A stretch of 64,000 nucleotides of DNA, from NCBI GenBank assembly GCA_025358085.1, contig JANYKT010000019.1, forward strand, positions 62,001-126,000. The letters run 5' to 3'. The number at the start of each line of letters is the position of its first letter. Position 1 is the first letter of the stretch. Below the pieces are notes generated by a model. That model was not told the origin of the DNA. It made no database searches and saw nothing but the letters and a program-made list of their open reading frames with translations. Of this stretch, positions 2 through 54,018 are shown piece by piece. The DNA is from Deltaproteobacteria bacterium (lineage in GTDB: Bacteria > Myxococcota > Myxococcia > Myxococcales > 40CM-4-68-19). Position numbers and translations under genes: made by a program.

Positions 2-796
2 TGCGCCGATCTGGACGTGCCCACCGCCGCGTCGATGAAGGAAGCCGCGCAATCGTATGAATATCTCTTCTTCGTCGGCTGCGCGGGCTCCTTCGACGAC
101 CGGCAGAAGAAGGTCTCGCGCGCGCTGATCCAGATCCTGAAAGAAGCCAAAGTCAGTTTCTGCATCCTGGGCGAGGAGGAGACCTGCACTGGCGATTCCG
201 CCCGCCGCCTGGGGAATGAATACCTCTTCCAGGCGCTCGCCACGCAGAACGTCGAGACCCTCAATGGCTATGGGGTGCGAAAGATCATCACGCAATGCCC
301 CCATTGCTTCAATACACTCGGCAAGGAATACCCCCAGTTCGGCGGCGACTTCAAAGTCCTGCACCACAGCGAATTGATTGCCCAGCTCATCGCCGACGGC
401 CGGCTCAAGGTCGGGCAGGTCACGCTCGATGAGCCGGTAACACTCCACGACAGCTGCTACCTCGCGCGCCACAACGGCGTGACCGAAGCGCCGCGCCAGG
501 CGCTGGTCTCGCTCGGAATCAAGATCACGGAGATGGACCGCAATCGCACCGAGACCTTCTGTTGCGGAGCGGGCGGCGGACGCATGTGGCTCGAGGAGAC
601 CATCGGCCAACGCATCAATCAAAACCGGGTTGAAGAGGCGGTCGCGACCATCGGCAACAAAGGCATCATCGCCACCAGCTGTCCTTTCTGTCTGACCATG
701 ATCAAGGACGGCATTAGCGAGACGGGCAATGCCGATACCATGCAGGCAAAGGACATCGCCGAGCTGGTGGCCATGGGTCTGCAAACGCGCCCGTGA
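2..796 (+). CDS. (Fe-S)-binding oxidoreductase with two CCG domains, 5' truncated
   Basis: Seen: the reading frame is open from the first bases, so the N-terminus lies outside the window. Two cysteine-rich CCG modules follow each other. The first has the FFVGCAGSFDD segment and a CPHCFNTL motif. The second has HDSCYLARHNG, FCCGAGGGRMW and TSCPFCLTM. Such pairs bind non-cubane Fe-S centres in HdrB/HdrD- and GlcF-like proteins. In the longer family members an N-terminal ferredoxin or membrane domain precedes them, and the protein passes electrons, often from electron-transfer flavoprotein. The stop overlaps the GTG of the next gene. The family is clear; the redox partner cannot be seen. Confidence 0.85.
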   Translation, partial: CADLDVPTAASMKEAAQSYEYLFFVGCAGSFDDRQKKVSRALIQILKEAKVSFCILGEEETCTGDSARRLGNEYLFQALATQNVETLNGYGVRKIITQCPHCFNTLGKEYPQFGGDFKVLHHSELIAQLIADGRLKVGQVTLDEPVTLHDSCYLARHNGVTEAPRQALVSLGIKITEMDRNRTETFCCGAGGGRMWLEETIGQRINQNRVEEAVATIGNKGIIATSCPFCLTMIKDGISETGNADTMQAKDIAELVAMGLQTRP

Positions 797-1764
797 TCGT
801 CACCGTGCGCGAGTTCCTGCTCGAACAGGACCTCGAACGAGCGTGTGAGTTGGGCGTGCGCGCGCGCGAGGATGACCCAGCGGTGGAACCTTTCGCGCAG
901 CGCTTGCCGGTCATCGCCTCGGGCCCGCGCGCGTTGTTGGAGCTGTGGCAGGTGGCCGAGGGTGAGGACGGACTTTTATATGGCATCGCCTTCGCCGCCG
1001 TCCGCGAGGCGCGAAGGCGTAAGCCCAGCAAGGCCGAGCACCAGTCGCCCATGCTGGCCGGACTCTCGGCTCCCGAGTCTTCGCAGCCTTTTAGCCCCGC
1101 AGATGCGCACCTGAGCATTGAAGTTTACGGAGTGGTCGATCGCACGCTGCGGCGCCAGGGACTGGGCCGGCAGCTCTTCGAGCCTGTCGTTCAGTTCGCC
1201 CTCAATGCGCCGGGCACCACGCTGCGGGCGCGCATCCCCGAGGCGCCGCCGGCGGAGAAGTTCCTCACGGCGTTGGGCTTTGGGCAGGCGTCGGCGCAGC
1301 TGTCTCTGGCGCGCGCCGTGGAAGCGCCGGCGCCGCGCGAGACGCCGGGCGTGATCGTCAAGCCTCTCAACCGGCGCGACCGGCGCTCTACCGAAGCTTA
1401 CCGAAAGTTATCGAATGAAGCCTGGGTGGACGCGCCCGATGCATTCGAGACCCGCGCCGATGAGCTTGCGCAACTGCTCGGCGACCTGGGCCGGGTATTG
1501 CTGCTGGCCGAAATGGAATCGAGACCGGCGGGATACTTGTCGGCGGTCTGGCTGGGGGAAACCCTGGCTATCGAAGAGGTCGCGGTCTTGCCGCACTATC
1601 GCCGGAGCGGAATCGGCCGCGCATTGGTGACCGCGGCACTTCAGCAAGCGCGAACGGTCCTGTTGACCGTCAGCGAAAGGAACGCGGCGGCGCGCGCCTT
1701 GTATAAAGGTCTGGGGTTTCAACAGGTGGGCCGCCGGCTGGTCTGGGAGCTCAAAGCAGCGTGA
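793..1764 (+). CDS. tandem GNAT-family N-acetyltransferase
   Basis: A 323-residue protein with two GNAT-like halves. The C-terminal half is canonical: an acetyl-CoA loop of the RRSGIGRAL type near residue 275, then RNAAARALYKGLGFQ, the usual motif B, as in RimI-like enzymes. The N-terminal half has a weaker copy (RRQGLGRQLF, then FLTALGFG), suggesting an ancient duplication in which one half may no longer be catalytic. The GTG start overlaps the preceding stop and the end overlaps the next gene, so the three genes are probably translated together. Substrate unknown. Confidence 0.8.
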   Translation: MIVTVREFLLEQDLERACELGVRAREDDPAVEPFAQRLPVIASGPRALLELWQVAEGEDGLLYGIAFAAVREARRRKPSKAEHQSPMLAGLSAPESSQPFSPADAHLSIEVYGVVDRTLRRQGLGRQLFEPVVQFALNAPGTTLRARIPEAPPAEKFLTALGFGQASAQLSLARAVEAPAPRETPGVIVKPLNRRDRRSTEAYRKLSNEAWVDAPDAFETRADELAQLLGDLGRVLLLAEMESRPAGYLSAVWLGETLAIEEVAVLPHYRRSGIGRALVTAALQQARTVLLTVSERNAAARALYKGLGFQQVGRRLVWELKAA

Positions 1765-2270
1765 GTGTTCTCGTGCGCCGGGCGCGGCCGGAAGACGACG
1801 CGGCCATCGGTGAGGTGTTGATTCAGGGATATGTCACCGCTTATGCGCGGAAGATGCCGCACGTCATCGTCGGAGAGGAGCGCCGCGCGGACTTGCGCAA
1901 CGTTTCCCAGCGCCGCGGGTATGCAACCATACTCGTTGCCGAGCTTGACGGCCGCGTCGTCGGCACCGTCGCGCTGTTTGCCTACGGCGCGCCGACCTGC
2001 GAGGCCTGGATTGCGGGCGCGGCCGATCTCCGGCACCTCGCGACCGACCCGTCCGTGCAGGGCCGCGGCTTCGCCAAGCCATTGCTCGACCAAGCCGAGC
2101 GCATCGCCCGCGATGACTTCCACGCGCCCGCCGTCTGCCTCCACGTCCGCCGCGGCAACGCCGGCGTCGCCCGCCTCTATGAATCCCGCGGCTATCTTCG
2201 CGACCCCCAGGGCGATCTCAGCCGCCCGGAAGATTCGCTCGAACTCGACGCCTACGCTCTCCGCTTTTAA
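1761..2270 (+). CDS. GNAT-family N-acetyltransferase
   Basis: 169 residues, single GNAT domain. The acetyl-CoA-binding loop is VQGRGFAKPLL (about residues 96-106), preceded by the beta-4 strand LRHLATDP and followed by RRGNAGVARLYESRGYL, the usual C-terminal motif. The GTG start overlaps the stop of the upstream acetyltransferase (GTGA), so this is the last gene of a short cotranslated unit. The substrate is not predictable. Confidence 0.8.
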   Translation: MSVLVRRARPEDDAAIGEVLIQGYVTAYARKMPHVIVGEERRADLRNVSQRRGYATILVAELDGRVVGTVALFAYGAPTCEAWIAGAADLRHLATDPSVQGRGFAKPLLDQAERIARDDFHAPAVCLHVRRGNAGVARLYESRGYLRDPQGDLSRPEDSLELDAYALRF

Positions 2271-2465
2271 TCCGGGGACACCATACTCATTTCAGTGCTT
2301 CATCCAGGAACGCTCGCGAACCGAGGTGCCAGCTCTCTCGTCCGAGCGTTCGGCAAGGCGTGGTCTCTGAAGCCTTGGCTGGTCATTGTCGCCACAGCCG
2401 CCTGTGGCGCTTACGGCCTGCCGCGGTAAAGGTCACCCGACGCCGGATATCGCAACGTCGACCTG
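2268..2465. other. convergent intergenic region with a GGGGACACCATACT motif and a small hairpin
   Basis: No gene is supported here between convergent genes. Immediately after the acetyltransferase stop lies ccggggacaccatactcatt (2272-2291). It resembles the short motif commonly found beside Y1-type (REP-associated) transposase genes; this is recalled knowledge, not a search. At 2391-2408 a perfect 7-bp stem gccacag/ctgtggc with a 4-nt loop could act as a weak terminator, but no T tract follows. Confidence 0.4.
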
Positions 2466-2795
2466 CTATTGCGCGTCGAGAACCGAGGCGAGTCGCTCCT
2501 GGTCCACCTCGGACACATCCGTGAACCGGAGGCCGAGATCGAAGCGCGCCGGCGAGCCCGCCGGCAGGGGCTCGATCCACGCGACCACTGCGTTGCAGAC
2601 GATGGTAGACGAGTCGGGCAGCACCAGCTCCAGCTCGAAGTGGGCACCGACCGAGACCTGCTCGTCGGCGAAGATGCGAGCGCCGCCGAGGCCAATGTCC
2701 AGTGTCTCTCCCGCGCTGTGAAAGCGGAGGCCCGCAGGGCGGCAGAACACGGGTGCCTTCAGCCGGGGAAAGCGTCGACGATCATTTTCTTTCAT
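2466..2795 (-). CDS. PilZ-domain protein
   Basis: 109 residues, essentially a lone PilZ domain, the family that binds cyclic di-GMP. The N-terminal RRRFPRLKAPVFCR segment supplies the RxxxR motif. The second motif, normally (D/N)xSxxG, reads DIGLGGARI, so the conserved Ser is Gly. This could weaken c-di-GMP binding. The ATG at 2795 is chosen because GAGGAG lies just upstream. It sits 7 nt after the WecG-type glycosyltransferase, so it may regulate polysaccharide output. A diguanylate cyclase is also present at 22 kb. Confidence 0.8.
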   Translation of the reverse strand: MKENDRRRFPRLKAPVFCRPAGLRFHSAGETLDIGLGGARIFADEQVSVGAHFELELVLPDSSTIVCNAVVAWIEPLPAGSPARFDLGLRFTDVSEVDQERLASVLDAQ

Positions 2796-2802
2796 GGCTC
2801 CT

Positions 2803-3588
2803 CTATCGGGACTTGAGCCGCGCTTCGCGAGGCGTCCGCAGCATGCGCCAGACCACCAGCGCAAACAAAGGATCGTTCAGTAGATATCGCCGCGCCAACC
2901 TGCGCGGCTCACATGCCAGCCTGTACAACCACTCGAGCCCCGCGTTGGACATCCAGCGCGGCGACCGCGTCGCGGTGCCTGCCAAAAAATCGAGGCTCGC
3001 GCCGATGCCAAGCAGCACCGCGGGAGCAAGATCGCGCTGCGTGCGATGAATGAAACGTTCTTGCTTGGGCGAACCCAGGCCGACGAGGACCAGATCCGCG
3101 CCGGCCGCCCGCACGCGCGCGACGAGAGCGGGCTCCTCGGTGCCGGCTTCGAGCCCCACGAACGGCCCCTCGGCGCCCGCAATCACAACGCCCTGCTCCG
3201 ACAGCCGCGCCGCCGCCAGCTCCGGAGTGCTCTGTCCGCCGCCGAGAAGGTAGACGCGCCAGCGCCGCTCGCGCGCCCGGTCAAGCAGCCGGGGGACGAG
3301 ATCCGAGCCCGAGATCTTTTCCGGCAGTGGCGTCCGAAGCAGCCGGGAGGCCCACACCACCGGCTGTCCGTCCGCGAGCGAGAGGTCGACGCTCTCGTAG
3401 GCGGAGCGCAGCGCGGCGTCGTTTTCGGCATTCACGACGTGGTCGACATTCGGTGTGAAGATCGAGCCGCCTCGGCGCTCATCAACGAGGCGCTCAATCT
3501 CGGTGAGCGCCTCGCTGAAGGTGAGCGCGTCGATCCACAACTCACCGACACGGACCCGGGCACCTGGGCGGCTTGAAGTCGCGGTCAC
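2803..3588 (-). CDS. WecG/TagA/CpsF-family glycosyltransferase
   Basis: 261 residues, the normal size for the family, which transfers ManNAc or ManNAcA-type sugars to undecaprenyl-linked intermediates in teichoic-acid, ECA and exopolysaccharide synthesis. Family hallmarks visible: FTPNVDHVVNAEND (about residues 44-57), LADGQPVVWASRLL, and the C-terminal LVGLGSPKQERFIHR with LLGIGASLDFLAGT and RSPRWMSNAGLEWLYRLACEPRRLARRY. GTG start. It is followed by the PilZ gene and lies divergently from the sugar-phosphate transferase at 3.95 kb, so the two enzymes probably serve one surface-polysaccharide pathway. Confidence 0.9.
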   Translation of the reverse strand: MTATSSRPGARVRVGELWIDALTFSEALTEIERLVDERRGGSIFTPNVDHVVNAENDAALRSAYESVDLSLADGQPVVWASRLLRTPLPEKISGSDLVPRLLDRARERRWRVYLLGGGQSTPELAAARLSEQGVVIAGAEGPFVGLEAGTEEPALVARVRAAGADLVLVGLGSPKQERFIHRTQRDLAPAVLLGIGASLDFLAGTATRSPRWMSNAGLEWLYRLACEPRRLARRYLLNDPLFALVVWRMLRTPREARLKSR

Positions 3589-3641
3589 GATTGTCAGGGA
3601 AGGCTGCCCGTTGGAGGGGATTCGAGGCTGGGCGATTTCAA

Positions 3642-3740
3642 CTATCGAATCGAAAGGAGCGCGAGCCAGAAGACGCCAGAGCCGAGGCAGAGCAGACTCC
3701 AGACGACCATCAGGTTTTTCGGCGCAGCGACTTCGGTCAT
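3642..3740 (-). CDS. small single-pass membrane protein, hypothetical
   Basis: A 32-residue frame starting at the ATG at 3740, with GAGG about 5 nt upstream. One hydrophobic segment (VVWSLLCLGSGVFWLALLS) fills most of it. It lies 53 nt upstream of the WecG-type gene on the same strand and could be its leader gene. No family recognised; the frame could be chance, though ribosome-site placement and hydrophobicity favour it. Confidence 0.35.
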   Translation of the reverse strand: MTEVAAPKNLMVVWSLLCLGSGVFWLALLSIR

Positions 3741-3951
3741 TGTGACCTCGGCTTCAAAGACGCGTACCCTAGCCTTTAGCATCAAGGAGGTGGACAAATT
3801 CGGGTCGAGGCGCTTACGGGGCCGCCGGAACAAAAAGTTGAAACCTAGCAATTCCAACTACTTGCGTCTGTGACGTTGATCCTCCGTTTGACGGTGGAAC
3901 CCTACCCGCGTACACAGTCTCGAAGGGGGAGGAAGCGGTCCCACTGCATTT
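3741..3951. promoter_or_regulatory. divergent control region of the polysaccharide genes
   Basis: This stretch separates the minus-strand WecG/PilZ unit from the plus-strand glycosylphosphotransferase, so both promoters should lie here. I see no convincing -35/-10 pair. A GG-N10-GC match occurs near 3893, but its -12 half is poor. Confidence 0.3.
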
Positions 3952-5442
3952 GTGAATGCGGGGCGACCAAGACAAGCCATGACCACTGCAAAAGTGGACG
4001 GTCCGGCTGTGATTGGCGTAGGCCGGCTCGCGCCGGGCGTCGTCTCAAGCGCGAACCTCGCCACCGATCTCGGAATCGTGCTCGCGGCCACCTTCGGTGC
4101 GCACTTGTGGAAGTGGCCTGGCCCGCTCGGAGATACGACGGCTGCCACGCTCTTATGGACGGGCCTGGCGCTCGTCTCCGTCTGGGTGGTGGTCGCGGCC
4201 GCGCTGCGCCAATACGCTTCGTTCGCTTACGATCGCACCCTGCTCGACGAAACCGCGATGTTGACCATCCAGGTGACCGCGATGGTCACCGTCCTCGCCG
4301 TGCTGCAGCTCTTCACCCACGCCGGTGGACCGCTGCCGCGAATTCCAATCTTCCTCGCCCTGGTGTGGTGCCCCACCCTGCTGTCGCGCATCTTCATCTT
4401 CCGCCCGCTCGCACGCAGAGAAGAGCCTGCCGACGAAGTGTTGGTCGCGGGCATCGGCCCCATCGCGCGCCTCACGGCCCAGGACATGCGGTCGCGCGGA
4501 CGGCATCGAGTCGTCGGTCACCTCACGTTTGCGGGCGAAAGCGAGAAGGAGACAGGACTCCTGCACCGCAGCTACTCGGCTGACGGTGCTCAGTGCAGCA
4601 TCCTGGGCCCGGTCAGCGAGCTGCAAGAAACCCTGCGGAAGACCCCGGTTGGCGAGGTCTATATCGCGGGCGACACGCGCAGGCATTCCGACGAGATGCA
4701 GGAGATCATCCGCGTCTGCGAAAAACTGGGCCTCCCGTTCGCCCTGCCGCCCTATGCGTTCCGGCTGGAGCGCGCGCAGGCGGTGGACACGCACCTGCTG
4801 CGGGACGGGTACCTGCATTACAAACAGGACAGCGCACGCCCGTCGCACATCGCGATGAAGCGGCTGCTCGACGTGGTCACGTCCGCCGTCGCGCTCTGGC
4901 TGCTTCTACCGCTCATCGTGATTGTCGGCGTGGCGATCAAACTGAGTTCCCGCGGCAACATCTTCTTCAAGCAGGCCCGCGTCGGCATGCACGGGCGCTC
5001 CTTCAACATGCTCAAGTTCCGCTCCATGGTGGTCAATGCGGAAGCTCTCAAGGCGATGCTCGCCTCGGCCAATGAGCAATCTGGCCCGGTATTCAAGATG
5101 CGCCGCGACCCGCGCGTGACACGCATTGGCCGCTTCATCCGCAAATATTCGATCGACGAACTGCCGCAATTGATCAACGTGCTGCGCGGCGACATGAGTC
5201 TTGTTGGACCGCGGCCACCGGTGCCTTCCGAGGTTTTGCAATACGAGGCGTGGCAGCGGCGCAGATTTTCAGTGCGGCCCGGACTCACCTGCATCTGGCA
5301 GGTGTCCGGAAGAAACCAGCTCTCGTTCGAAGAGTGGATGTATCTCGATATGCAGTATATCGACCATTGGAGTCTGGCCGGCGACTTCAATTTGCTCTTC
5401 CGGACAGTGCCCGTCGTGATTACCGGCCGTGGCGCAAGCTAG
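3952..5442 (+). CDS. polyprenyl glycosylphosphotransferase (WbaP/WcaJ-type sugar transferase)
   Basis: About 496 residues. An N-terminal membrane region with roughly four hydrophobic segments (residues 30-150) is followed by a degenerate nucleotide-binding-like domain (VLVAGIGPIAR) and then the catalytic bacterial sugar-transferase domain from about residue 300. That domain contains KRLLDVVTSAVAL, FKQARVGMHGRSFNMLKFRSM, the DELPQLINVLRGDMSLVGPR block and RPGLTCIWQVSGRN. The family moves a sugar-1-phosphate onto undecaprenyl phosphate, the first step of exopolysaccharide or O-antigen assembly at the inner membrane. Start is GTG 3952 or ATG 3979; neither has a strong ribosome site. Confidence 0.92.
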   Translation: MNAGRPRQAMTTAKVDGPAVIGVGRLAPGVVSSANLATDLGIVLAATFGAHLWKWPGPLGDTTAATLLWTGLALVSVWVVVAAALRQYASFAYDRTLLDETAMLTIQVTAMVTVLAVLQLFTHAGGPLPRIPIFLALVWCPTLLSRIFIFRPLARREEPADEVLVAGIGPIARLTAQDMRSRGRHRVVGHLTFAGESEKETGLLHRSYSADGAQCSILGPVSELQETLRKTPVGEVYIAGDTRRHSDEMQEIIRVCEKLGLPFALPPYAFRLERAQAVDTHLLRDGYLHYKQDSARPSHIAMKRLLDVVTSAVALWLLLPLIVIVGVAIKLSSRGNIFFKQARVGMHGRSFNMLKFRSMVVNAEALKAMLASANEQSGPVFKMRRDPRVTRIGRFIRKYSIDELPQLINVLRGDMSLVGPRPPVPSEVLQYEAWQRRRFSVRPGLTCIWQVSGRNQLSFEEWMYLDMQYIDHWSLAGDFNLLFRTVPVVITGRGAS

Positions 5443-5457
5443 GACCGGGATCGAACC

Positions 5458-5871
5458 GTGGAACCTGTCAGGAAGAGCGCGATTGTTGTCGAGGACGATC
5501 CGGCGATTCGCAAGCTGCTGCGAAAGTACCTCGAAAAACTGGACTTCGACGTTCGAGAAGCAGGGAACGGCAGAGCCGCGCTTTCCCTGCTCAAGGAAGA
5601 GCAGATCCCTTCTCTCGTTTGCCTCGACGTGATGCTGCCCGAACTGAGCGGCTATGAGATTCTCGAATACATCCGCGCGACCCCCAGACTCAAGGAGGTT
5701 CCCATCTTGATCGTCTCGGCGCGCGCGCTGCCGACAGACCGCGCCTTGGCGGAGGATCTCGGCGCCAATGCCTACCTGGTCAAACCGATTCGATGGACTA
5801 CCTTTGCAAGCTCGGTCAAGGAGCTCTTCAAAAAGGAGAGCGCGCAGGGAGCAGGGGATTTACCTGACTAG
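5458..5871 (+). CDS. single-domain response regulator
   Basis: 137 residues forming one CheY-like receiver with no output domain. Acidic pocket E12/D13/D14, phospho-acceptor D57 (CLDVMLPELSG), switch S87 and K109 (LVKP) are all present, so it should be phosphorylatable. It starts with GTG 15 nt after the glycosylphosphotransferase and so is probably cotranscribed, which suggests a role in timing or localising polysaccharide synthesis. No partner kinase lies in the window. Confidence 0.88.
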   Translation: MEPVRKSAIVVEDDPAIRKLLRKYLEKLDFDVREAGNGRAALSLLKEEQIPSLVCLDVMLPELSGYEILEYIRATPRLKEVPILIVSARALPTDRALAEDLGANAYLVKPIRWTTFASSVKELFKKESAQGAGDLPD

Positions 5872-5902
5872 GTCGCTGGCAAGAAATTGCGGCCAGCGTG
5901 AT

Positions 5903-6694
5903 TCAGAGAGACTGGCAGCGGTCGCAGGCATAAGCCCAGCGACCGGCGAGGTCCCAGCGGCGGACCTTGTCACCGCAAGAAGGACACGAGTCGGATTTGT
6001 AGATATGGACCCGCTCTGAACGAAGCCTGGGAATGGGTGATTTCCCGAACGCCGCCGGAACGGTGATGATGCGGCGGTCCCGGACGCCGCGGGCGAGCGC
6101 CTCGACAAGCCAGCTCCAGAGCGTGTCGAACTGCGCGCGCTGTAGAGTATTCGAGGGCATTAATGGATGTATCCGATTCACGAAGAGCGCCTCGGCGCGA
6201 TAGACATTGCCGACCCCGGCAATCAGCGATTGATCCATCAGAGCGACCCCAATCGGACCTTTGCGTCGCAGCAGCTTCTCCCAGACGAGCCCGGGCTCGG
6301 CGTCGACGCTCAACGGATCTTCGCCCAGCCGCGCCCGCAGCGCGCGCTCCTCGCCGCGCGTCAACAGCTCGCACGCGGTCGGTCCGGTGAGATCGAGAGT
6401 CAACAAAGGCTCCGCGCGCACGATGCGCATGCGCACGGTGTCGCGCGGGGCCGGCTCGCGGCCGAGGTGCCGGCGGAACTTGCCGAAGAGCCCTAGATGC
6501 ACATGCACCAGGCGCGCACCGGCATAGCGGTGGAAGAGGTGCTTTCCGTGTGCTTCCGCGCGCAAGAACTTCGTGCCGTCGAGCAACGCGGCGCACTCGA
6601 ACCGTCCCTGCGGCGAGCTGACCTGCACCACGCGATTGCGCAGCTCGCGCGTGTGGTCCAGCGCCAGCCGGTGGATGGTATGTCCTTCGGGCAT
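5903..6694 (-). CDS. nei: Fpg/Nei-family DNA glycosylase (endonuclease VIII-like)
   Basis: 263 residues with the family architecture. The N-terminal MPEGHTIHRLA supplies the catalytic Pro2 and Glu3 and resembles Nei more than MutM. The helix-two-turn-helix region contains LMDQSLIAGVGNVYRAEALF. The C-terminal zinc finger is CPSCG...CDRC, with FGKSPIPRLRSERVHIYK before it. It excises oxidised bases and nicks at the abasic site. Convergent with the receiver gene; the upstream CNNM gene ends 77 nt away on the same strand. Confidence 0.9.
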   Translation of the reverse strand: MPEGHTIHRLALDHTRELRNRVVQVSSPQGRFECAALLDGTKFLRAEAHGKHLFHRYAGARLVHVHLGLFGKFRRHLGREPAPRDTVRMRIVRAEPLLTLDLTGPTACELLTRGEERALRARLGEDPLSVDAEPGLVWEKLLRRKGPIGVALMDQSLIAGVGNVYRAEALFVNRIHPLMPSNTLQRAQFDTLWSWLVEALARGVRDRRIITVPAAFGKSPIPRLRSERVHIYKSDSCPSCGDKVRRWDLAGRWAYACDRCQSL

Positions 6695-6771
6695 CGCGTT
6701 CAGCCTGCTCCCCGGGCGCTACCCGCGCACGCAAATGCGACGGGGAGCCTGGAGCGAAGTTGCACCTGAAT

Positions 6772-8058
6772 CTATCTGGCGGGCAGCGGGGGCAACGCTT
6801 TCCCGCGCGCCACCCGGACCAGCTGCACGTGGCGCTCGTCGCGCTGCGCGACGGTCAGCTCGAGGCCGCCGATAAAGAAGCGATCACCCGTCTGCGGAAT
6901 CGCCCCCGCGCAGGAGTTGAGCAGCCCCGCGAGAGTCTCGAAATCGCCCCCACCCGGCAGCGTCGCGCCCAGCGTGCGATTCACATCCTCGATACGAGTC
7001 TCGGCGCCCAGCAAGGCCGTTCCGTCAGGTCCCAGACCGGGCATCGGCTGTTCGATATCGTGCTCGTCCCGGATCTCGCCGACGATCTCCTCGAGGATAT
7101 CCTCGAGGCAGACGATCCCCATGAACCCGCCATACTCATCAATGATCATGGCGATATGACTTCGCCGCTGCTGCATCTCCCGCATCAGCTCGCCCACCGG
7201 CTTGGTCCAGGGCGCGAATTGCGCGGGCCGCAGCAGGTCTTGCAGGACGATCAGCTCGGGATGCGCCAACAATGGAATCACGTCCTTCGTGTGCAGCACG
7301 CCTTTGATGTGATCGAGATCGCCATCGAAGACCGGCATGCGCGTATGACCTTCCTCGGCCAACAGGTCGATCACCTCGGCTGGGGTCGCGCCGAGAGGCA
7401 CGCCAACGACGTTGGTGCGCGGGACCATGATCTCCTTGGCGGAGCGGTCCGCAAAAGTAAACAGGCCGTGAATCATTTCGGCGGACGGCGCGCCGGCCGC
7501 GCCTCCGCGGGCTTCCTCGGTGAGCAACTTTTCGAGTTCCTCCAGCGGCGGCGGCGGCGGCGTATACCGCGCCACCGCTCCGCGGTGCAGGAGCAGGGCA
7601 TCGAAGAAGCGGAGCATCAGGAGCACCGGCGGCCGCAGCACGAAACACACCGCGCGCGCCGGGCCAGCGAGCGAGAGACCCCACACGAGCGGGCTCGCTG
7701 CCGCGAGCGATCGCGGCGCCAGGTCGATGATCAGCGCCACCGCGCCGGCCAGCAGCCCAGCCAATAGTTGCAGCGAGCCGCGCGAGGCGGTGTACATGCC
7801 GGCCTTGAGCAGCACGTCGCCGACCACGATGGCGCAGGCCACCGCGGCGAAGGCGAGCAGGCCGGACGAGGCCCCGCGCAGCGCAGCGGCGGTCGGCTGC
7901 GGATCCTGCTTCAGCTGGAGCAGCCAGCGGGCGCGGTGCGGATGGGCCACGCCGCCGGTTCGGATCTCGTCCTCGCCGAGCGCGATGATGGCCGCGTCGG
8001 CTGCCTGAAGCAACGCGCGCCCCGCGAGTGCCGCGCCAGCTGCCAAGAGCTCAAGCAC
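6772..8058 (-). CDS. CNNM/CBS-domain transporter-like protein (HlyC/CorC family)
   Basis: 428 residues from the GTG at 8058. N-terminal CNNM membrane domain with several hydrophobic stretches (about residues 1-150), then a CBS pair (VPRTNVVGVPLGATPAEVIDLL ... RRSHIAMIIDEYGGFMGIVCLEDILEEIVGEI) and the C-terminal CorC_HlyC domain (DFETLAGLLNSCAGAIPQTGDRF). The family is linked to Mg2+/Co2+ efflux or membrane-ion homeostasis. The same frame stays open upstream, but that part looks like the antisense of purS and was excluded. Divergent from purS with 97 nt between. Confidence 0.87.
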   Translation of the reverse strand: MLELLAAGAALAGRALLQAADAAIIALGEDEIRTGGVAHPHRARWLLQLKQDPQPTAAALRGASSGLLAFAAVACAIVVGDVLLKAGMYTASRGSLQLLAGLLAGAVALIIDLAPRSLAAASPLVWGLSLAGPARAVCFVLRPPVLLMLRFFDALLLHRGAVARYTPPPPPLEELEKLLTEEARGGAAGAPSAEMIHGLFTFADRSAKEIMVPRTNVVGVPLGATPAEVIDLLAEEGHTRMPVFDGDLDHIKGVLHTKDVIPLLAHPELIVLQDLLRPAQFAPWTKPVGELMREMQQRRSHIAMIIDEYGGFMGIVCLEDILEEIVGEIRDEHDIEQPMPGLGPDGTALLGAETRIEDVNRTLGATLPGGGDFETLAGLLNSCAGAIPQTGDRFFIGGLELTVAQRDERHVQLVRVARGKALPPLPAR

Positions 8059-8155
8059 GGGGGTGAGCCTACCAGATCCCTGGCCCCCGACCTTCGCCTT
8101 GAAAGCTGCCGCAAACGCTCCTATGGTGCGCGCCTCTGCAGCGGAGGTAGGTTCC

Positions 8156-51651: not shown

Positions 51652-52329
51652 CTACTTCGTCGCGCCCGCCTGCGGAGCAGCTTTCCGAGGCAGCGGCACG
51701 GGGCAGCTCACGCCGGTGCCACCCAGCCCGCAATACCCGCCCGGATTCTTGTGCAAATACTGCTGGTGATACTCCTCGGCGTAATAGAAGGGCGGGGCGT
51801 CGACAATTTCAGTGGTGATCGGATTCAGGCCTGCGCTCGCCAGTTCTTTTCCGTAGGCCGCTTTGGAGGCCTCTGCCGCCGTCTTCTGCGCTGGGCTGGT
51901 GACATAGATCCCCGAACGGTACTGCGTTCCGGCATCATTGCCCTGCCGCATGCCCTGGGTTGGATCGTGGCTTTCCCAGAAGATCTTCAGGAGCTGCTCA
52001 TACGAGATCTGGCGCGGGTCGAAGACGACCTGCACCACTTCGGTGTGGCCCGTGGTGCCGGTGCACACTTCTCGATAGGTGGGATTGCGGGTGAAGCCGC
52101 CCGCATACCCCACGGCCGTGCTGAACACGTTTTTCGTTTCCCAGAACTTGCGCTCGGCACCCCAGAAGCAGCCCAGGCCGAAGACCGCTACCTCGGTCCC
52201 TTGCGGGAATGGGGCTTTGAGCGGCGCGTCGAGCACAACGTGCCTCGCTGGAACCGGGAGGGGAGTATCGCGGCCGGGAGGAGCGTCGGCGGCCGCGGGC
52301 ATCTTTGACTTGTCCGGGTTGAGCCACAT
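51652..52329 (-). CDS. msrA: peptide-methionine (S)-S-oxide reductase
   Basis: 225 residues. Catalytic [14 protein letters not shown], then [78 protein letters not shown]. The C-terminal Cys residues ([13 protein letters not shown]) are the resolving ones. About 50 residues precede the MsrA core and have no hydrophobic segment. It repairs oxidised Met. No msrB nearby. Confidence 0.95.
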
Positions 52330-52364
52330 GGCGTCATTATAACGGGCGCTGTATGTCTCCGCAC

Positions 52365-53032
52365 ATGGACGTCGCGCTGTTCGTGCCATGCTACATCGAT
52401 CAGCTCACTCCGCAGGTCGGGATGGCGATGGATGGTGCGCAATCATTACGTCACCGACAGTCCGGTGCGGCGCCATTCATTTGAAGAAGGAGGAGATTGG
52501 CGAGCTGTTTCACGAGAAGCTCGGGACTCCCGCCGGCCTGTCCGACCCGAAGGCGCTTACCGAGGCGGCGCGGCACCACCTGCGCGGCGCGGCGTTCGTC
52601 AAGCCGGGCGGACGCTGCGCATTTGGCGAGGTCGAGGCTGTGCTGCAGACCGTGCCGGAATATAGCGCCGCGCTGAAGGTCCTCTCGGTGGTGCCGGGCG
52701 TGAGCAAGGCCAATGTCTTCGAGGTGCTCGACCCGCACGAGTACGCGAGCCTCGACTTCTGCGTGCTGCAGGGCGAGTTGGGCGTGGCCGAGAATGCGGC
52801 CATCTGGGTGCGCGACTTTCCTAATCGCGCGGCGGCTTATCTCGCGCAGCATATCGCTATCGTGGTCAGCGGGGACGCCCTGGTGCACAACCTGCATGAG
52901 GCCTGTGCGCGCCTCACCATCGGTCCTGGCTTCGGGCAGTTCATCGCCGGACCGTCGAAGACCGCCGTATCGAGCAGGCCCCTGGTCATTGGTGCTCACG
53001 GCGCGCGCTCCTGCACCGTCATCGTTACATGA
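52365..53032 (+). pseudogene. collapsed lutA-lutB-lutC (lactate oxidation) operon
   Basis: Three gene pieces in 670 bp. ATG 52365 gives [21 protein letters not shown], the start of LutA (CCG Fe-S protein), which ends within 25 codons. Next, in another frame, IHLKKEEIGELFHEKLGTP and ARHHLRG match the middle of LutB. Then, in that same frame, VPGVSKANVFEVLDPHEY, LQGELGVAENAAIWVRD, and GPGFGQFIAGPSKTA with VIGAHGARS match the C-terminal half of LutC, ending at a stop. Two internal deletions would explain it. The fused B-C frame could be translated but lacks the Fe-S domains. Confidence 0.7.
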
Positions 53033-53223: not shown

Positions 53224-54018
53224 ATGGGCAGCGCGCGGGCCGGCTCGACAGCGCAAGAAGCCCGCGCAGGGTTTCCTTCTCGCGGCGGCCGGCCGAAGCT
53301 CATTGCCGCGCGCGCGGCGGTGGCAAGATTGTTGTGGACCGCAACCGGAGAGCGCCGAGTCTCGCCAGCGGCGGCGCTCGACGAAGTGCTGTCTGCGCTG
53401 CCGCGCGGCGAGCTTGCCTGGTTGAGCGAGTTCTCCGCGCTGGGGCCGCAATACCTCTTTGCCACAGCTCCTTTTCTGCGCGCGCTCCGAGCGCGCATCC
53501 GCGCGTGCGGAGTCAAAAGAGTCGTCGAGGTCGCGGCTGGCGACGGGTTTCTCGCGCGGTCCCTCGCGCGGGTCGCACCGGAGTTGAAAATCATTGCTAC
53601 CGACTCGGGCGCGTGGGAGCGGCCCTTTGCGCGCATGAACAGCAAGGAGCGGCGCACGCTGCGCAAGGAGGAAGTGACGGGATTGATGCCGGGCGAAGGC
53701 GTGCGCAAGCTGGAGGCGCGCGCGGCCATTGCCGAGTTCAAGCCGGATCTCGTCCTTGCCTCCTGGTTGCCGCCCGGCCCGACGCTCGCGCGTTTAATCA
53801 AATCGCAGGTGCGCTATGTGTTGGAGATCGGGGCCGGCAGCGGCATTACCGGCGACGCCCGGTGCTGGCGTTTCGAGCACGAGTTCTGCGACGAACTCGA
53901 GCGGTCCGCGCGCTGCCGCCTCGACGAGCGTCCGCGGGAAGAGCTGCACACCACTGTCACCCTTTATCTGGGAGCGGCGCACGAAGGCTACGCCGAGCGC
54001 AGGCACTGGCTCTTCTGA
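53224..54018 (+). CDS. SAM-methyltransferase-like protein
   Basis: 264 residues. VKRVVEVAAGDGFLARSLARVAPELKIIATDSGAWE resembles motifs I and II of a class I methyltransferase; motif IV may be PDLVLASWLPPG. The first 60 residues are basic and Arg-rich. The C-terminal part (VRYVLEIGAGSGITGDARCW) is reminiscent of a second such motif but probably is a strand-turn. Exact family not recognised. Ends 15 nt before the end of the opposing lipase gene. Confidence 0.5.
   Translation: MGSARAGSTAQEARAGFPSRGGRPKLIAARAAVARLLWTATGERRVSPAAALDEVLSALPRGELAWLSEFSALGPQYLFATAPFLRALRARIRACGVKRVVEVAAGDGFLARSLARVAPELKIIATDSGAWERPFARMNSKERRTLRKEEVTGLMPGEGVRKLEARAAIAEFKPDLVLASWLPPGPTLARLIKSQVRYVLEIGAGSGITGDARCWRFEHEFCDELERSARCRLDERPREELHTTVTLYLGAAHEGYAERRHWLF

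Follow-up and report, generated by a model that had tools for sequence, protein, structure and literature searches.

The segment at positions 52365–53032 of the window, the window being the whole 64,000-nucleotide stretch analysed (contig 88 of the genome, 62001–126000), is very probably, as judged from its sequence, a pseudogene left over from a formerly intact lutABC (lldEFG) operon for L-lactate oxidation. Comparison by tblastn with the intact LutA, LutB and LutC proteins of six relatives, as proposed in the preliminary description of this DNA, matched pieces of all three genes, which lie collinearly on the forward strand in the operon order LutA-LutB-LutC (Table 1); the retention of the LutA start, the LutB middle and the LutC end in this order, as described there, was thus confirmed. 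The genome comprises 5.42 Mb in a draft of 217 contigs that is 98.11% complete and 3.07% contaminated.

Table 1. Features in and around the lutABC remnant (window coordinates).
Feature	Position	Strand	Basis and remarks
msrA, left neighbour (presumably peptide methionine sulfoxide reductase)	51652–52329	-	ORF list; divergent, 23 bp from ATG at 52353
Open frame from lutA start	52353–52484	+	ORF list; 43 codons, then stop
LutA residues 1–21 (remnant S1)	52365–52427	+	tblastn, six queries, 62–81% identity, E 1e-7 to 3e-10 (for 800-bp target only)
Open frame through LutB-LutC chimera	52388–53032	+	ORF list; 214 codons, its start lies in lutA DNA in a different frame
LutA residues 82–87 (remnant S2), likely, not certain	52432–52449	+	Exact 6-residue match at its ordered place
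LutB residues 151–188 (remnant S3)	52472–52585	+	tblastn; TIGR00273 positions 139–177, 15.5 bits
LutB-LutC joint, exact place uncertain	52586–52606	+	tblastn, relatives' DNA
LutC residues 44–194 (52598–53029) and stop codon at 53032 (remnant S4)	52598–53032	+	tblastn, PF02589
Cancelling -1/+1 frameshift pair replacing LutC DIEQ motif	52967–52982	+	DNA alignment with five relatives
Right neighbour, methyltransferase-like (name by inspection only)	53224–54018	+	Present in 10 of the 12 family genomes (including its own)

The strongest match is that of the LutC piece, which is 41–58% identical to the intact LutC of all six queries, with E-values of 1e-35 to 1e-58 that hold for the 800-bp target only. 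It contains a PF02589 LUD domain match covering positions 83–188 of 189 at 28.2 bits (cut-off 22.6); the match in intact relatives likewise starts only at 81–83, and the LUD range alone is not diagnostic. The comparison of the LutB piece rests on five queries, of which three gave 79–82% identity over 38 residues, a fourth 74% over 47 and a fifth 43% over 99, the last alignment extending beyond the joint; the sixth query (L037) consisted of the LutB tail only and was uninformative, the LutB of that locus being in fact long. Among the 39 genomes searched besides its own, 13 contained matching relatives, and in each of these the LutB piece and the LutC piece align to different portions of a longer locus. 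A separate scan of named genomes, which yielded Anaeromyxobacter loci, retained 80 of 144 confirmed stretches, the highest identity being 51%. Two further matches were rejected, namely a LutC-end match at 52310–52393 (E 0.0009 to 0.008), which in a different reading frame extends over the start of msrA and the LutA piece and was attributed to chance, and a TP_methylase (Pfam) match of 17.6 bits, which lies below its cut-off.

From the lutA start to the lutC stop, the relatives contain 2655 bp (G002 and G010), 2673 bp (G001), 2736 bp (G016) or 2702 bp (G031), and G007, with a shortened LutB, contains 2370 bp. Since the scar measures 668 bp as against 2655 bp in intact operons, about 2.0 kb, approximately three quarters of the operon DNA, is missing, rather than the 2.5 kb assumed previously. 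Three gene pieces imply at least two deletions, and the two deletions of the preliminary description therefore stand as a minimum. The second LutA piece (residues 82–87), overlooked there, is read in another frame than the first and makes a third deletion likely, so that there were probably three. By chance, an exact match of six residues to the lost portions of Lut turned up in 64 of 20000 shuffled versions of the gap and, among 20000 random stretches of 44 bases, in 121 (0.3–0.6%); the 22 bases that separate this second piece from the LutB piece were left unassigned.

None of the three proteins is left with a complete domain. LutA, which carries two CCG (PF02754) domains, is reduced to residues 1–21 and probably 82–87, and all six PF02754 matches of the genome lie outside the scar. 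LutB reaches the 15.5 bits of Table 1 against a TIGR00273 cut-off of 444.8; its iron-sulfur cysteine motifs lie outside the retained residues 151–188, and with only about 38 residues kept all of them are gone. LutC lacks residues 1–43, and its conserved DIEQ is replaced. As far as can be read from the DNA, any product of the scar cannot work as LutABC. Elsewhere in the window, the span 2–796 on the forward strand holds the terminal part of a frame of 777 codons that bears two CCG domains and is cut by the window start; this frame looks heterodisulfide-reductase-like.

The damage to LutC was located by DNA alignment with five relatives (L036, which the search pattern did not match, was left out): one base is lost and one is gained a few codons later in a C run, after which the frame is restored. 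At the 38 invariant columns of 13 intact LutC proteins the scar departs seven times, as compared with zero to three times for the intact proteins when left out in turn; four of the seven departures form the single frameshift patch, and the excess elsewhere is small. In the LutC piece, the GC content at the three codon positions (0.69/0.47/0.82) is close to that of the four closest LutC genes (0.70–0.74/0.46–0.49/0.84–0.90). Identity to the nearest LutC relatives is only about 60%. Because the GC signal is still coding-like, the decay looks fairly recent. In the course of events that we infer, at least two and probably three internal deletions would have taken about 2 kb out of lutABC, removing most of LutA, all of LutB except about 38 residues and approximately the first quarter of LutC, and the remaining LutC end would additionally have acquired the pair of single-base indels.

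The preliminary description had drawn attention to the open frame running from the LutB piece into the LutC piece. Such a frame is indeed present, and it might be taken to indicate that the chimera is a still translated small protein under selection, perhaps starting at the TTG at 52481: a single frame spans both pieces, the two LutC indels offset each other, which would fit a preserved frame, the codon-position GC is coding-like, and the TTG overlaps the TGA (52482–52484) that closes the lutA frame, an arrangement that could allow coupled translation. However, when random 645-base stretches of the window were drawn, 1844 of 3000 contained at least one fully open frame among the six, so that open frames of this length are common in the window and the one observed means little; one in three random fusions falls in frame, and an antisense frame of 234 codons also overlaps the scar. 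Furthermore, the putative protein would be devoid of the LutB cysteine motifs and would miss part of LutC, its most conserved LutC motif is destroyed, and the ATG at 52353 is only 23 bp away from the divergent msrA. A selected protein therefore appears extremely unlikely, and a chimera frame coupled to the short lutA leader through the TTG/TGA overlap, with a new role, is likewise extremely unlikely. The open frame should not be annotated as a working LUD-domain protein.

It is also highly unlikely that the strain carries an intact operon of which the assembler skipped or mis-joined parts. The draft state of the assembly, with the contig number, completeness and contamination given above, would leave room for such an error, and the base gained in LutC sits in a C run, a common site of sequencing error. 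On the other hand, the missing parts of LutB and LutC were found on no other contig, and inspection by eye of the relatives' DNA at the joints revealed no long shared repeat able to collapse; a short repeat or microhomology at the first joint, likewise judged by eye, is possible but not proven. Two or three errors within about 250 bp would be needed, and the LutC damage is distant from the joints, so that a false assembly joint offers no explanation for it. The collinear pieces, the lack of any further LutB or LutC over cut-off in the genome and the destroyed conserved motif together make the decay of lutABC by deletion well supported, and the scar is ordinary gene decay.

Both flanking genes were searched across the 12 family genomes, and synteny was compared in a subset of seven right-neighbour loci, five lut loci and six of the msrA loci, the msrA loci extending only about 1.5 kb to each side. 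In these loci the flanking genes adjoin neither each other nor lut, and no lut piece lies beside them. With the flanks unlinked in the compared loci, the event is not datable by synteny; deletion in place, as originally suggested, fits the collinearity of the pieces but gains no support from the neighbourhood.

The profile search of the genome found no other LUD domain over cut-off (one sub-threshold match, 11.4 bits) and no LutB over cut-off (five other weak matches). A second lactate dehydrogenase, which had been proposed as a check, was looked for as well. The FMN_dh matches are weak (best 37.3 bits), two lying over and a third below cut-off; by inspection the two do not look like LldD and presumably represent an IMP dehydrogenase and an isopentenyl-diphosphate isomerase, and an Ldh_1_C match was similarly taken to be malate dehydrogenase. 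No LldD-like FMN_dh protein over cut-off was thus found, and other candidates are present. Contig 143 encodes an LctP-family permease that exceeds the TIGR00795 cut-off with 538 bits but does not reach those of the equivalogs for L-lactate permease and glycolate permease. Next to it come malate synthase A, above its cut-off with 748 bits, and GlcD-, GlcE- and GlcF-like proteins, all below their equivalog cut-offs. From what is generally known of GlcDEF, this gene make-up suggests glycolate as the substrate, perhaps with D-lactate. Two further FAD-oxidase_C proteins are encoded on contigs 95 and 73. On the latter (L173, G000:C73, 1354–4581, reverse strand), a 1075-codon frame fuses an FAD-oxidase part to a GlpC-like iron-sulfur part; its scores against the YdiJ and GlcD models are far under the respective cut-offs. 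Since the permease, malate synthase A, the GlcD/E/F-like genes and the two FAD oxidases remain, the loss of lactate oxidation stated in the preliminary description is too strong as a general claim and holds for the Lut enzyme: oxidation of L-lactate via Lut has likely been lost, and the genome should not be scored as capable of this route. The Lut route may have been dispensable because other genes for organic-acid oxidation were retained.

Within the family, LUD-domain matches occur in six of the 12 genomes (own included): five have both LutB and LutC, and the sixth, the present one, has nothing but the scar; the remaining six have no LUD-domain match, two of these being only 74% and 61% complete. 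The LctP-family permease is present in three of the 12. In G002 (L034, G002:C58:35000-50000) lutABC, malate synthase, GlcD, GlcE and GlcF stand in one row at 8–8079 on the reverse strand. In the genome studied here, contig 143 carries the malate synthase-GlcDEF block together with the permease, and contig 88 carries the lut scar. A malate synthase gene also comes after lutBC on a short contig of G008 and roughly 5 kb past lutC in G007; the stretches of G010 and G001 that were inspected showed none. The LutB of G007 has 361 residues as compared with 448, 449 and 455 in three family members; in its lutB (L036, G007:C153:11000-21731, approximately 6716–7786, reverse strand) about 87 residues including the second cysteine motif are absent in frame, and its LutA is five residues shorter than that of G002. 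This short LutB may reflect either the same decay at an earlier stage or a gap in the assembly. The scar is a clear snapshot of operon removal by piecemeal deletion in a family with a patchy distribution of lut.

The scar still has the gene order of the LutABC/LldEFG operon, and parts of each of the three proteins can be recognised in it; it differs in being without about three quarters of the DNA and any complete domain. The operon is treated as one unit for L-lactate, and GlcA is said to carry glycolate and both lactates, in PMC4117512. An inactivated locus under removal by deletions also corresponds to the deletion-eroded pseudogenes described by Kuo and Ochman 2010 (PMC2916853), a study of Salmonella, whereas here three adjacent genes are united in one remnant. 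Among free-living bacteria, damage to a lut gene is known from Deinococcus radiodurans, whose lutB is noted as a pseudogene in a passage of PMC11219805; the passage names lutB alone, and the paper deals with how two sequenced strains differ.
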